DNA of 64,000 nucleotides from Owenweeksia hongkongensis DSM 17368 (lineage in GTDB: Bacteria > Bacteroidota > Bacteroidia > Flavobacteriales > Schleiferiaceae): positions 2,976,001-3,040,000 of the forward strand of contig NC_016599.1 of assembly GCF_000236705.1 (NCBI RefSeq), given 5' to 3'. Under the pieces are notes generated by a model that saw nothing but the letters and a program-made list of their open reading frames with translations, was not told the DNA's origin and did not search any database. This document shows, piece after piece, positions 7,257-11,545 of the stretch. Each line of letters begins with the position of its first letter. The first letter of the stretch is position 1. The translations under genes were made by a program, and so were the position numbers.

Positions 7257-8015
7257 ATGAAGGTAATTTCATATAATGTAAACGGAATACGAGCGGCAGT
7301 AAAAAAAGGTTTGATGGAATGGTTGCAAGCTGCCAATCCGGATGTGCTTTGCTTGCAAGAAACCAAGGCGCAGCCTGAGCAAATAGACCATGAGCTAATA
7401 AAAGAAAGTGGCTATCATGGCTATTATCACAGTGCTCAAAAGAAGGGATATAGCGGTGTAGCTATTTTAACTAAAACGCAGCCCGACCATGTGGAAATAG
7501 GCTGTGGTATTGAATACATCGACCTTGAAGGGCGTATCATTAGGGCAGATTATGGAAACCTTTCAATTATGAGTGTGTACATTCCATCGGGAACAAATAT
7601 GCTGCGCCAAGGACTGAAGATGCAGTTTTTGGCAGATTTTCAGAAGCATATTTCTGAGCTTCTCAAAGAACGTCCAAACCTGATTGTGTGTGGTGATTAC
7701 AATATTTGCCATAAGGCGATAGATATTCACAACCCTATTCAAAATGCAAACTCATCTGGGTTTTTACCCGAAGAAAGAGAATGGGTAAGCGGATTTATCG
7801 ACAGCGGATTTATTGACAGCTTTAGATATTTTAACCAAGAGCCGCATAATTACTCGTGGTGGAGCTATCGAGCCAATGCCAGGAATAATAACAAAGGCTG
7901 GCGTATAGATTACAACATGGCAAGCACTCCTTTGGAAGGCCGGTTGAAGCGTGCGGCTATTTTGCCCGAAGCCAAGCATTCTGACCATTGCCCCGTCTTG
8001 CTTGAGCTGGATTAA
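7257..8015 (+). CDS. xth: exodeoxyribonuclease III
   Basis: A 252-residue enzyme of the ExoIII/AP-endonuclease family, cleaving the backbone at abasic sites and trimming 3' ends in base-excision repair. Visible motifs: Asn7 (SYNVNGIR), Glu35 (CLQETK), the CGDYNICH motif with Asp147 and Asn149, and the C-terminal SDHCPV with catalytic Asp243-His244. The ATG at 7257 is chosen over an in-frame TTG at 7236 because family members begin directly with MKxISYNVNG. Length matches the family. Cytosolic, apparently monocistronic. Confidence 0.95.
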   Translation: MKVISYNVNGIRAAVKKGLMEWLQAANPDVLCLQETKAQPEQIDHELIKESGYHGYYHSAQKKGYSGVAILTKTQPDHVEIGCGIEYIDLEGRIIRADYGNLSIMSVYIPSGTNMLRQGLKMQFLADFQKHISELLKERPNLIVCGDYNICHKAIDIHNPIQNANSSGFLPEEREWVSGFIDSGFIDSFRYFNQEPHNYSWWSYRANARNNNKGWRIDYNMASTPLEGRLKRAAILPEAKHSDHCPVLLELD

Positions 8016-8110
8016 GGCAATTATCAATAACGCATTATTCATAACTTAAAGTAAAGGCTATCGCATGGTGTGGGTAGCCTTTCTACTTTCGTAGAATAAT
8101 CTTATTTTCT

Positions 8111-9094
8111 ATGAAACGAATTTTCATTTTAGCCCTTAGCGGTATTTTGTTTAGCTCTTGCGTGACTAGTAAAATCCACAAAGAACTACAAGCAAAGTAT
8201 AAGGATTTGGAAGGCACCAACCTCTCTCTTAGAGAAGAGAATGATGCTATGAAAGCTAATTTGGGCACCACCCAGGATGAGCTTGACGCTACCAAGAATT
8301 CAATGGCAAAATTGCAGGAGGAGCACGATGCTTTGAAGAAAAGCAATGACGAATTGCAAACGCGCTATAGAGATTTGAATAAGAATTATGAGTTTTTGTT
8401 AGAAAACAATAATGCCCTTTTGGCAAGCAATCAGGCAGAAAACAAGAAGTTGATTGAAAAGCTAAATGTGCTTCAGCAGGAGCTGCAGGCCAAGGAAGAT
8501 TCATTGACCAATGAGCAGCAAAAACTGGAATATTTGAGTCAGGAATTACAGAAGCGCGAAGCCCGTGTATACGAATTGGAGTCAATGATTGCTGAGCAAA
8601 ACAAGCAAGTGGATGCTATTCGTAATCGTTTGAAAGAAGCACTTTTCAACTTTGAAGGAAAAGGACTTACAGTGGAGCAGCGCGATGGTAAGGTGTATGT
8701 TTCTTTGGAAAATAGCCTTCTATTCCCGAGCGCCAGCTGGAATGTGGATGGAAAAGGAAAAGAGGCCTTGCAGGAATTAGCGAAGGTACTTGCTGAAAAC
8801 CCTGATCTTAATGTAATGGTAGAAGGTCATACAGATGCTGATGCTTTTAACGGAAAGACTGCTGTGAAAGACAACTGGGACCTTTCGGTAATGCGTGCTA
8901 CTTCTATTGTAAAAATATTGACCGCCAATGAGGGTGTGGACCCGGCCAAGATTACCGCTGCTGGTAGAAGCGAATATATCCCTGTGTCAGATAACGACAC
9001 TGTTGAAGGAAAAGCTAAAAACCGCAGAACAGAAATTATTATCACTCCGGATTTGGACGCTATCGTAAAGGTATTGTCTGAAGTAAAGGAGTAA
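8111..9094 (+). CDS. OmpA-family peptidoglycan-binding lipoprotein with coiled coil
   Basis: A 327-residue lipoprotein: hydrophobic leader with a Cys at position 17 (FSSC), a long alpha-helical coiled coil at about 20-180 rich in Lys/Glu heptads, and a C-terminal OmpA-like domain at about 205-325. The domain contains VMVEGHTDAD and KNRRTEIIITP, the usual meso-diaminopimelate-binding elements. The protein most likely spans from the outer membrane inner leaflet to the cell wall. The upstream sequence carries a near-consensus -7 box (TACTTTCG, one mismatch). A hairpin with T run follows the stop. Confidence 0.9.
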   Translation: MKRIFILALSGILFSSCVTSKIHKELQAKYKDLEGTNLSLREENDAMKANLGTTQDELDATKNSMAKLQEEHDALKKSNDELQTRYRDLNKNYEFLLENNNALLASNQAENKKLIEKLNVLQQELQAKEDSLTNEQQKLEYLSQELQKREARVYELESMIAEQNKQVDAIRNRLKEALFNFEGKGLTVEQRDGKVYVSLENSLLFPSASWNVDGKGKEALQELAKVLAENPDLNVMVEGHTDADAFNGKTAVKDNWDLSVMRATSIVKILTANEGVDPAKITAAGRSEYIPVSDNDTVEGKAKNRRTEIIITPDLDAIVKVLSEVKE

Positions 9095-9132
9095 ATAGTA
9101 AGAGTTTACATTTCTCTACTTGTTGATTTAAG

Positions 9133-9157
9133 ACGACCTTTCGGGGTCGTTTTTTTA
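9133..9157 (+). terminator. terminator of the OmpA-type gene
   Basis: ACGACC and GGTCGT arms are followed by seven or more T residues. The arms are the same GACC/GGTC sequence used in the palindromic repeats that begin 34 bases further on, so this may be a decayed or co-opted member of that repeat family. Confidence 0.75.
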
Positions 9158-9190
9158 TTGTTTTTTGTCGGAAATACTCAGTGGTTTATT

Positions 9191-9258
9191 CGACCCCGAT
9201 GGGGTCGTGATGATGAGGTGATTCTATTTTCTATTGACATCCGAACCCGCTGGGTTCG
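9191..9258 (+). repeat. two-palindrome repeat unit L1
   Basis: Outer palindrome CGACCCC-GAT-GGGGTCG (9191-9207), a 21-base spacer, the 12-mer TTCTATTGACAT (9229-9240) and inner palindrome CGAACCC-GCT-GGGTTCG (9242-9258). Confidence 0.85.
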
Positions 9259-9390
9259 TTTAGAGCTTTTTGTTTTGAGCGTGTTTGTTTAACACTAAGA
9301 GTCAAATGAAAAAGAGTGATGTTTGATTGGGCTAATGATAGATGAACGTTCAGCAAATGCGAGATGTATTCAGTATACTTTCAGGATTGG

Positions 9391-9462
9391 TTGACCTCAG
9401 GGAGGTCAAATGTCAATAGAAAGATTGATCAGTACACATCAGGTCGACCCCAGCGGGGTCGA
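9391..9462 (-). repeat. two-palindrome repeat unit L2 (inverted)
   Basis: Read on the plus strand: inner palindrome TTGACCTC-AGG-GAGGTCAA (9391-9409), ATGTCAATAGAA (9410-9421), a 22-base spacer, then outer palindrome TCGACCCC-AGC-GGGGTCGA (9444-9462). It is the same unit as L1 in reverse. The outer palindrome ends 69 bases before the transposase start. Confidence 0.85.
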
Positions 9463-9531
9463 ATATATATGCCAATTCGACCGGGATTTTTGATTTTGTC
9501 AAAATGACTATTTTCATAGTAAAACTAAGAA

Positions 9532-9996
9532 ATGGCAAATACCTATTCTCAACTATATGCACATGTGATTTTTGCAGTGAAAAATCGCGAAGCCTTAATT
9601 CGTGAAGAGTTTAAAGAAGAATTGTATAAATACATTTCAGGTATTGTAAACCACAAAGGGCAAAAGCTTTTCGCGATAAATGGTATGCCAGATCATATCC
9701 ACATCCTTTTAAGTCTATCTCCGGATTGTCCCTTGTCAGAATTGGTTAGAGAAATAAAAAAGTCTTCTAACGGCTTCATTAAAGAAAAAGGTTTATCCAA
9801 ATTTCCCTTTGCTTGGCAAGCAGGTTATGGGGCGTTTTCCATAGGTGCTTCTCAAATTTCGAAGGTTGTAAATTATATTGAAAATCAAGAAAAGCATCAT
9901 ACTAAGAAATCCTTTGAAGATGAATACAGAAGTTTTTTAGAAAATTATCAGGTGGATTTCAAGGATGAGTATTTGTTTGAATTTTTTGATAATTAA
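9532..9996 (+). CDS. IS200-like / REP-associated tyrosine transposase (Y1 HUH enzyme)
   Basis: A 154-residue Y1 transposase with the full HUH apparatus: His55-Ile-His57 in GMPDHIHILL and the nucleophile Tyr115 in KVVNYIENQEKHH, with the usual WQAGYGAFS segment before it. The family cuts and rejoins single-stranded DNA next to hairpins, using a 5' phosphotyrosine link. Length and C-terminal region (DEYLFEFF) match the short Bacteroidota IS200-like group. No TnpB accessory gene is present. The stop lies 4 bases before the R1 palindrome, so the transcript would end in a repeat hairpin. The gene appears intact. Confidence 0.9.
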   Translation: MANTYSQLYAHVIFAVKNREALIREEFKEELYKYISGIVNHKGQKLFAINGMPDHIHILLSLSPDCPLSELVREIKKSSNGFIKEKGLSKFPFAWQAGYGAFSIGASQISKVVNYIENQEKHHTKKSFEDEYRSFLENYQVDFKDEYLFEFFDN

Positions 9997-10000
9997 CATT

Positions 10001-10068
10001 CGACCCCGCTGGGGTCGCTCGCCCATGGCGACTTTATTTCTATTGACATTTGAACCCAGAGGGTTCAA
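10001..10068 (+). repeat. two-palindrome repeat unit R1
   Basis: Outer palindrome CGACCCC-GCT-GGGGTCG (10001-10017), a 20-base spacer, TTCTATTGACAT (10038-10049), and inner palindrome TTGAACCC-AGA-GGGTTCAA (10050-10068). Same orientation and length as L1. Confidence 0.85.
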
Positions 10069-10347
10069 TGTTTGAGGATGTAACCACATAGCTGTAATGT
10101 CCTTTTTACACTAGGTTGGTTGATTCCTATTTAATTTTCTGAAACATTAACACACCACTCCTCTTAAATCGATTCTAACTATGACGTTTGTTTTTACTGA
10201 TAAGTGAACTAGCTACGTTCGCTGTCACACCTGAGTATTATCAAAAAATCGTAGCAGAGTTTGTGGGGCTATACTGTCGAGCAAGGATTTCACCTAAGTG
10301 TTTATTCGTGATCACTGCGAAATATGGGCTTGTCCTAATGTGGGTGC

Positions 10348-10416
10348 GTGACCTCAGAGAGGTCACATATCAATAGAAATAAGAATGTTATACCAACACG
10401 ACCCCAGCGGGGTCGT
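10348..10416 (-). repeat. two-palindrome repeat unit R2 (inverted)
   Basis: Inner palindrome GTGACCTC-AGA-GAGGTCAC (10348-10366), ATATCAATAGAA (10367-10378; one change from the 12-mer), a 19-base spacer, and outer palindrome ACGACCCC-AGC-GGGGTCGT (10398-10416). It lies 13 bases past the stop of the minus-strand acyltransferase and may serve as its 3' hairpin. The 279 bases between R1 and R2 hold no supported gene. Confidence 0.85.
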
Positions 10417-10429
10417 ATGTTTATGTTAT

Positions 10430-11545
10430 TTATTTCTTCCCAAACCGATCCCGCAATTTGGTTGTAGGGATTTCAAAGTATTTATACAACAGAATAGAAC
10501 CAAAAAGAGAAACGAATAAGTACATGACAACTCTCAAAACATCTAAACCTAAAGTATGCTCAGCAAGCTCTCCGCGGAGGGTTAAAGGAATGATAAAGCC
10601 CTTCGTGAGGGTGAAATGAATCAAGTACATGGAGTACGAAACAAGACTGACCAATGTAATGCCCTTGGCTAATTTTCCTTTTCCTGTTTTTACAGAAGTA
10701 AGAATAGGTAAACACAGGAATACTCCGGTCGCAAATACCAAAAAGGAAAGTACTGTGTGGTAAAAGTAATTGCCTTCGAAAACTTCTTTAGCGTAATGAA
10801 AGCACACCTGATTAAAAATGATAAGAATGAGGCCTAACCACATTTTTAACTTGGGTTTAGATAACCAGCCCTTAGAAAAGTAGGTTGAAAGGTAGGCTCC
10901 CAAAACCCCCATCATTAGCGAGTCAAAACGTGTGATTACCTGCTTTCGGAAAAAATGATCGTAATCCTTTAGGCTGGCAATTTCCACCACATTAAAACGG
11001 TAAAATCGAACCCCGATGGACAGTGCTATAAATGCGAAGATTAACCATGGAAACCATTTTTTTAGTGAAGTTTCACTTTTGAACATAGCAAAGCTGGCCA
11101 AGGGAAAAAGAATGTAAAACCATTCTTCTACTGCTAGGCTCCACACTTCCTGAAAGAAGTGTGGATGAGGGCTGGCGAAGTTTTGTAGAAAAAGAACGTA
11201 AGGAAACATGTCCTTTATTTGAATATCCCAATAGTACCAGCCTAAAACCGTCACAACTATTAAAATCAAAAAGTAATTCGGAAGCGTACGAAACCATCGT
11301 CTTATCCAAAATTGACGAAGCTCGTTGAAGCCGCCACCATGGGATCTGATACGCTTCATAAGAATTCCACCTATCAAAAAGCCACTGAGGACAAAGAAGA
11401 TGGAAACGCCATCTAATACCAAAAAACTTAGTGGACGAATATTAAATTGATGCTTGAGCATAGGCAAGCCATGACCATAGATGACAAATAGAATGGCTAG
11501 GGCACGCAGAATGTCAAGCCCATAGATGCGCTTGCTTAGGTCCAT
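10430..11545 (-). CDS. acyltransferase 3 family membrane protein (OafA/YrhL-like)
   Basis: A 371-residue integral membrane acyltransferase of the Acyl_transf_3 family. It has about ten hydrophobic helices. The first carries the conserved Arg14 and His25 (DILRALAILFVIYGHG), FFVLSGFLIGG follows near residue 55, and SLAVEEWFYILFPL lies in the middle. Such enzymes acetylate or succinylate surface polysaccharides, lipids or peptidoglycan. The ATG at 11545 is chosen over an upstream frame extension to 11611 because homologues begin just before the R..ALA motif, and the extension overlaps the neighbour's terminator zone. The acceptor cannot be told from sequence. Confidence 0.88.
   Translation of the reverse strand: MDLSKRIYGLDILRALAILFVIYGHGLPMLKHQFNIRPLSFLVLDGVSIFFVLSGFLIGGILMKRIRSHGGGFNELRQFWIRRWFRTLPNYFLILIVVTVLGWYYWDIQIKDMFPYVLFLQNFASPHPHFFQEVWSLAVEEWFYILFPLASFAMFKSETSLKKWFPWLIFAFIALSIGVRFYRFNVVEIASLKDYDHFFRKQVITRFDSLMMGVLGAYLSTYFSKGWLSKPKLKMWLGLILIIFNQVCFHYAKEVFEGNYFYHTVLSFLVFATGVFLCLPILTSVKTGKGKLAKGITLVSLVSYSMYLIHFTLTKGFIIPLTLRGELAEHTLGLDVLRVVMYLFVSLFGSILLYKYFEIPTTKLRDRFGKK

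Follow-up and report, generated by a model that had tools for sequence, protein, structure and literature searches.

The DNA analysed here, referred to as the window, is a stretch of 64,000 nt from the single-contig, 4.0 Mb genome of Owenweeksia hongkongensis DSM 17368 (NC_016599.1, positions 2,976,001-3,040,000, forward strand), and it contains a Y1 (HUH) transposase gene set among four short units, U1 to U4 (Table 1). These lie in the order U1 (forward, F), U2 (reverse, R), gene, U3 (F), U4 (R), and their arrangement agrees with an earlier sequence-only reading, which had described four two-palindrome units, each with an outer palindrome and an inner variant, ordered F-R-gene-F-R. Along its own strand, every unit comprises an outer hairpin (P1), some 20 bases of variable spacer, then the conserved tag, and lastly an inner hairpin (P2) with a variable stem. 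P1 has the form CGACCCC-NNN-GGGGTCG in all four window units, and the tag 5' of P2 is TTTCTATTGACAT, with TTTCTATTGATAT in U4.

Table 1. Features of the transposase locus and related genes of the same genome (window positions unless a genome coordinate is given)
Feature	Position	Component parts	Strand	Basis
Unit U1, F	9191-9258	P1 9191-9207, tag 9228-9240, P2 9242-9258	+	model 65.6 bits, folding
Unit U2, R	9391-9462	P2 9391-9409, tag (complement) 9410-9422, P1 9444-9462	-	model 66.6 bits, folding
Y1 (HUH) transposase gene, 154 aa	9532-9996		+	ORF, Y1_Tnp domain, motifs, fold
Unit U3, F	9999-10068	P1 10001-10017, tag 10037-10049, P2 10050-10068	+	model 61.7 bits, folding
Unit U4, R	10348-10416	P2 10348-10366, tag (complement) 10367-10379, P1 10398-10416	-	model 72.9 bits, folding
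Block more alike to genus-mate locus L004 than adjoining DNA	9208-10068			identity counts
RAYT-type Y1 gene, same genome	G000:C1:2830094-2830309 (L002/L003 pair)			Y1_Tnp search, over RAYT cut-off
RAYT-type Y1 gene, same genome	G000:C1:2155892-2156080 (L002/L003 pair)			Y1_Tnp search, over RAYT cut-off

When folded as single-stranded DNA, all four units form both hairpins (z -3.8 to -6.0), and none of 200 shuffled sequences was as stable for any of them; the folds of U2 and U3 include an extra small hairpin, and the lowest-energy fold of U4 lengthens P1. Chance palindromes are rejected by these shuffled folds together with the counts of near and far pairs at 80 related loci given below. A known RNA family as the identity of the units is also rejected, as an Rfam search of positions 8900-10700 gave no match at E values up to 1. 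Behind an OmpA-like gene, a separate hairpin at 9134-9154 (stretch 9134-9160) ends in GGGGTCG followed by a run of T; it is terminator-like and resembles P1, and may be a P1 that has taken on a terminator's role.

The transposase matches Y1_Tnp (PF01797) with 101.4 bits against a cut-off of 23. The enzyme is intact, as the sequence-only reading had it. When the window protein is aligned with 34 of its best 80 relatives, D54-H55-I56-H57 and Y115 are invariant, so that the earlier numbering of the HIH motif (55-57) and the tyrosine is right; W95, Q96, Q119 and H123 are likewise invariant in all 35 rows, and H122 is found in at least 90%. An AlphaFold model of the protein (pLDDT 88) has as its closest solved structures the IS200-type TnpA proteins, those of ISDra2 and IS608 first, several of which hold bound end hairpins. 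The RAYT structure 4er8 comes only at rank 30, and a second comparison gives Z scores of 12.7 for IS200-type and 11.0 for RAYT structures. Because the protein passes the NCBIfam IS200/IS605 transposase model (NF033573; 76.4 bits, cut-off 55) and falls far below the REP-associated transposase model (NF047646; 30.7 bits, cut-off 80), the enzyme is of IS200 type and no RAYT in the narrow sense. Its DHIH, WQ and Y---Q--HH motifs agree with the set published for TnpA-Y1 subclass 1.2 (Y---Q--HH, DH[IV]H and WQ; PMC6006769), to which we assign it by motif. That subclass is characterized in the 2018 survey of Quentin et al., as far as its subclass descriptions go, as lying near the IS200 transposases, without the properties of an IS and generally without terminal IS200 structures, occurring in Bacteroidetes and Cyanobacteria at low genomic copy number, and its entry in the survey's REP column is 'no' (PMC6006769). 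Close relatives of the gene also occur in records titled Bacillota, Melioribacteraceae, Anaerolineales, Omnitrophota, Balneolales and Acidobacteria (L009, L018, L020, L032, L041 and L058); these are metagenome bins, so that transfer and contamination are not separable.

The association between gene and units extends well beyond this locus, as is seen in the best 80 of 513 related stretches found in a scan of the collection. A scan blind to the tag finds 71 palindrome pairs spaced 46-56 nt apart in the 108.8 kb lying no more than 700 nt from the gene at these loci, and 2 in 199 kb of far DNA at 1.5-3 kb, shuffled sequences giving 0.2 each; 32 of the 80 loci have a pair near the gene, and two have one in the far DNA. 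Of 88 units, 38 match the tag TTTCTATAAACAT at no fewer than 11 of its 13 positions, compared with 0.06% of shuffled spacers, the consensus for this count being derived from those same units. A covariance model, R1, was built from 44 units, 36 of them taken from 26 of these loci. With the threshold set at E 1e-3 it identifies 264 units in 64 of the 80 loci; a unit lies within 700 nt of the gene in 63 of the 80 and none lies wholly inside it, a count that includes the 26 loci that fed the model.

Among the best 150 of 242 model matches, the tag is nearly constant at three positions (T at -10 in 97%, A at -9 in 98% and T at -2 in 99%), and the loops have a direction. In 149 three-base loops of P2 the last two bases are pyrimidines 144 times and the first two are purines twice, while in 141 loops of P1 the corresponding counts are 97 and 25; after removal of repeats per source they are 68 and 2 for P2, and 45 and 18 for P1. 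From the loop counts of 144:2 and 97:25 we conclude that P2 has a strand sense and P1 has less of one. Neighbouring units mostly alternate in orientation (72 R-F and 69 F-R, against 22 R-R and 13 F-F), and in 54 of the 72 R-F pairs a single P1 is common to both units, producing a symmetric three-hairpin arrangement, P2'-tag'-P1-tag-P2. The lineages differ in this respect, with F-R pairs in the Owenweeksia genome and R-F pairs, often with a common P1, in relatives. Where units stand on both sides of the gene, the arrangement is R-gene-F at 14 of 18 loci, F-gene-R at two and R-gene-R at two. Stem covariation is also pronounced (82 double-changed cells compared with 14.3 in shuffled alignments, alignment A2), although we do not use it as main evidence, because the A2 units were preselected for palindromy and tag match. 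Free of this selection problem is a compensated pair in P1 of U1, where A-T is replaced by C-G at the genus-mate locus L004.

Several further arrangements were observed at related loci. Tandem arrays of units with periods of about 50 to 390 nt are present at L045 (3504-3815), L030, L063 (2250-2799) and L013 (3462-5746), pointing to local amplification. Upstream of the gene, the related species represented by L042 and L051 differ by whole modules of about 220 nt that contain units. In Flavobacterium (L031, L049, L050, L055, L056, L059, L060, L063, L064, L066, L069, L072, L076, L079, L080 and L082) the gene lies at loci that can be aligned over many species, with unit matches weak or absent, which is perhaps a domesticated or fading state.

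The units are also dispersed away from the gene. Using a model of the host's own genus (R2, built from ten own-genome units and three from L004), with 79 of 1060 candidates scored, we find at least 14 units in the Owenweeksia genome, four at the gene and ten elsewhere, so that the further copies sought on the strength of the sequence-only reading do exist. Eight of the ten make up four F-R pairs and the other two are lone F units; the six places that the ten occupy are intergenic, two of them overlapping the end of the preceding reading frame by a few bases. There is a single match to this transposase gene in the genome, and a whole-genome Y1_Tnp search finds three Y1 places, none of them at the six other unit places. 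The presence of copies far from the gene, and of units lying to either side of it and on either strand, is difficult to reconcile with the units being structured RNA that regulates the transposase gene and no DNA substrate; the nearness of a unit to the gene at most related loci is what such a role would predict, and the Rfam result is a further point against it. We consider this explanation very improbable.

A stronger competitor is that this is an ordinary IS200/IS605-type insertion sequence that ends in these hairpins, the scattered units being what is left of dead copies, or MITE-like elements derived from them. The NCBIfam assignment, the top ranking of the IS608 and ISDra2 structures, the prevailing R-gene-F flanking and the occurrence of at least nine gene matches in some genomes are all as this would have it. 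In the Owenweeksia genome, however, one gene copy stands against at least 14 unit matches, the other unit places lack any Y1 gene, and across many Flavobacterium species the gene can be aligned together with its surroundings, unlike a freely jumping IS. On balance we regard an ordinary insertion sequence as unlikely.

Across genomes the gene and the units occur together. We surveyed 396 genomes of the host's class, taken as Bacteroidia, scoring the gene with profile A3 and the unit with R1, each at E 1e-3, under strict filters and with at most 11 unit and nine gene candidates scored per genome. The gene is present in 207 genomes and the unit in 123; both are found in 112, the gene only in 95, the unit only in 11 and neither in 178. 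Units thus occur in 112 of 207 gene-positive and 11 of 189 gene-negative genomes (odds ratio 19, p 9e-28, with genomes that share ancestry treated as independent), R1 itself having been derived from units that lie beside genes of this kind. The palindromes are accordingly not equally common in genomes that lack the transposase, and the part of the earlier suggestion that ties the palindromes to the enzyme in one system is supported. The unit rate is graded with the strength of the gene match, being 83/125 at gene E 1e-55 or better and 29/82 for weaker matches, a division made by hand, and 11/189 where there is none. The 95 gene-positive genomes without a unit at E 1e-3 result in part from the strict filters and the ceiling of 11 scored candidates. 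When the gene was sought again in the 11 unit-only genomes, with the threshold relaxed to E 10, ten had no match and one had a match at E 1.55. Among the 60 nearest genomes, nine have R2 units and six of these nine have a gene match; one of the other three (G008) has 22 units, with only a gene remnant containing a stop (E 0.003), as if units outlive the gene. The system of gene and units is real and widespread.

These data also bear on the idea that another enzyme, such as the resident RAYTs, moves or keeps the units, or that they are host elements such as terminators, and that the gene merely landed among them. RAYTs are common, being strong in 141 of the 396 genomes by our reading of RAYT scores, there are the 11 genomes with units and no gene, and hairpins of such kind can serve as terminators, as the one at 9134-9154 with its T run may illustrate. 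Once the gene is fixed, however, RAYTs show no association with units, either in gene-negative genomes (units in 3/43 with and 8/146 without a strong RAYT, p 0.72) or in gene-positive ones (55/98 and 57/109, p 0.68), while the odds ratio for the gene is 17-19 in both RAYT strata. Two of the three Y1 places in the Owenweeksia genome are themselves RAYTs, scoring 87.7 and 104.4 bits with NF047646 (cut-off 80), carrying NHVH, YVHNNP and YIHQNP, and resembling subclass 2.6 by motif, and the R2 search of this genome, with 79 of 1060 candidates scored, gives no unit match near either. RAYTs as the partner of the units are rejected on these two grounds. In addition, terminators would not be expected to have a tag and a P2 loop with strand polarity, and the distal flanks of related loci, two pairs in 199 kb apart, are without pairs. 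We therefore think it improbable, and more so than an ordinary insertion sequence, that another enzyme or a host function accounts for the units.

The number of R1 matches per genome ranges from 0 to 71 in 15 genomes, 11 of which were picked for high scores; the Owenweeksia genome has 12. The 71 matches are in G267 and include both strands of one place. Seven copies in this genome, on six stretches, are closely alike over three hairpins and slightly beyond. Outside the hairpins, TTAATGACATT or TTAATGATATT is found at L175 and L178 (G267) and at L186 and L188 (G341). In G267 this motif flanks the hairpins in inverted form, resembling either terminal inverted repeats or a favoured target, and the elements adjoin another repeat family. 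As a general terminal motif TTAATGACATT or a near form of it is rejected, since it was seen in the G267 and G341 families only.

Comparison with the genus-mate offers a view of how the locus has changed. Its locus, L004, is syntenic with that of the window, and a block comprising the gene and the inner units (Table 1) is more alike between the two species than the DNA on either side. Third codon positions are identical at 145 of 154 sites in the transposase gene, compared with 467 of 586 for a pair of genes upstream (261/327 and 206/259 separately; p 7e-6), and non-coding identity is 314/324 at 9208-9531 and 235/278 at 10069-10346 (p 7e-8). To the left, identity is 75/96 at 9095-9190 and 13/17 in P1 of U1. 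The level of identity shifts at P1 of U1 at the left end of the block and around P2 of U3 at its right end. This suggests that the block moves or is exchanged as a single piece, and the simplest reading would be that the gene and inner units were exchanged or re-inserted together after the species split, an alternative being selection on silent and non-coding sites; the argument is weakened by intergenic positions 8013-8110, which are also much alike (91/98).

Since no empty insertion site was found in the comparisons of the Owenweeksia locus, G001, G267 and G421, insertion itself is something that we infer. That enzyme and palindromes make up a domesticated or self-spreading unit, as the sequence-only reading proposed, may be so: a single gene copy accompanies at least 14 unit matches in the Owenweeksia genome, but none of the comparisons captured an insertion event. 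The gene upstream of the Owenweeksia locus was sought in eight genomes, and has the downstream neighbour within 1.5 kb in the genus-mate, G001, only. The six other Owenweeksia places were compared with seven G001 stretches that had been chosen for holding units, a comparison that could reveal shared places and not empty ones. Four places (L085, L086, L164 and L166) have a unit-bearing counterpart in G001, with turnover between the hairpins; L084 has a unit-to-unit match only, and L165 has no match. With four of the six occupied likewise in the genus-mate, movement there has not been recent. A G267 element, taken together with 3.9 kb of flanking DNA and sought in ten genomes of its genus, has its left side kept and its right side rearranged, with no empty site, and for a 551-base G421 stretch sought in 19 genomes of its genus no other genome matches across. 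Within one draft genome, L034 and L043 differ by 342 nt of units, starting at P1, a difference that may come from recombination between repeats or from the assembly; the Lacihabitans loci L034, L038 and L043 are near-identical and may themselves be assembly variants.

The explanation that we favour, with a probability of roughly two in three, is a REP-like (REPtron-like) system in which a low-copy transposase of IS200 type acts in trans on directional, single-stranded two-hairpin units. The cognate DNA would be P1, about 20 nt, the tag and P2, present at the gene and as scattered non-autonomous copies. For binding, the position of cleavage, strand joining, timing at the fork and the role of P1 we infer a scheme in which the hairpins would fold when a strand is exposed, for example at a replication fork, the enzyme would recognize the tag and P2 on one strand, and Tyr115 would cleave the DNA and the ends be joined, so that pairs of units would be spread or rearranged in trans. 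The spreading step might be strand joining, copying or recombination between repeats, and the gene would travel between an R unit and an F unit. P1 might offer a dimer a further place to bind, or might serve as the axis of the symmetric P2'-P1-P2 form, and as the two hairpins lie about five helical turns apart, a dimer holding both is our guess. In IS608 and ISDra2 the subterminal hairpins are recognized as single strands. By analogy with these and with TnpA-REP, the tag and P2 are likely to be the recognized half of the unit, read on one strand. For TnpA-REP, the published account consulted places cleavage beside the hairpin, with a guide or foot 5' of it (PMC8266576).

The system has points in common with several known ones and coincides with none. 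With REP/RAYT systems (REPtrons, BIMEs and REPINs) it shares a Y1 enzyme, dispersed intergenic palindromes that alternate in orientation, a short 5' foot and loop polarity; in the account of the Stenotrophomonas maltophilia REP system consulted, reversal of a GCT loop severely affects cleavage (PMC8266576). It differs in its IS200-type enzyme, in a foot that is ATN inside the extended TTTCTATAAACAT tag whereas REPs have GT[AG]G, and in having two hairpins per unit at near-fixed spacing, often in the symmetric three-hairpin form. The sequence-only reading had already set these units apart from the classical one-palindrome REP, correctly; its proposal of a Bacteroidota counterpart to RAYT/REP pairs stands as regards linked, dispersed palindromes and falls as regards the enzyme, which scores far below the RAYT cut-off, and the foot, which is not GT[AG]G. 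IS200/IS605 elements such as IS608 and ISDra2 share the enzyme family and fold and the subterminal hairpins, and are different in that here there is a single gene copy with many gene-less units, and paired inverted units in place of a left and a right end. The TnpA-REP subclass 2.6 (RAYT group 5) is also of Bacteroidetes and, in the survey's description, is flanked by atypical secondary structures (PMC6006769), but its proteins are others and the two such genes of the Owenweeksia genome have no units nearby. With TnpA-Y1 subclass 1.2 the enzyme shares the motifs, a length of about 150 aa, a low copy number (a single copy here) and a place in the Bacteroidetes; the subclass listing of that paper gives no REP (PMC6006769), whereas here and at 63 of the 80 related loci two-hairpin units adjoin the gene. 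Among titles and the opening parts of abstracts, with RepRanger (PMC12306157) and the CGTC repeats (PMC3733652) left uncompared, we found no description of two-hairpin units with subclass 1.2.

A fuller proposal, which we advance tentatively and at somewhat less than even odds, is that this is a REP-like system, widespread in Bacteroidia, whose origin lies in the IS200 branch of Y1 enzymes and is separate from that of the RAYTs, with a new unit architecture, either P2'-tag'-P1-tag-P2 or the convergent P1-tag-P2...P2'-tag'-P1'. P1 would be the axis or synapsis site and the tag and P2 the half that is read, and the gene would move by virtue of sitting at the P1 axis.

In summary, the units are likely to give a little-studied enzyme of the Bacteroidota its target, and the subclass 1.2 enzymes, listed without a REP partner in the survey's subclass descriptions (PMC6006769), gain a specific DNA partner that can be tested. 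The findings suggest that single-strand transposases have been turned to dispersed hairpins more than once, and the units may explain many of the intergenic palindromes in Bacteroidia genomes.
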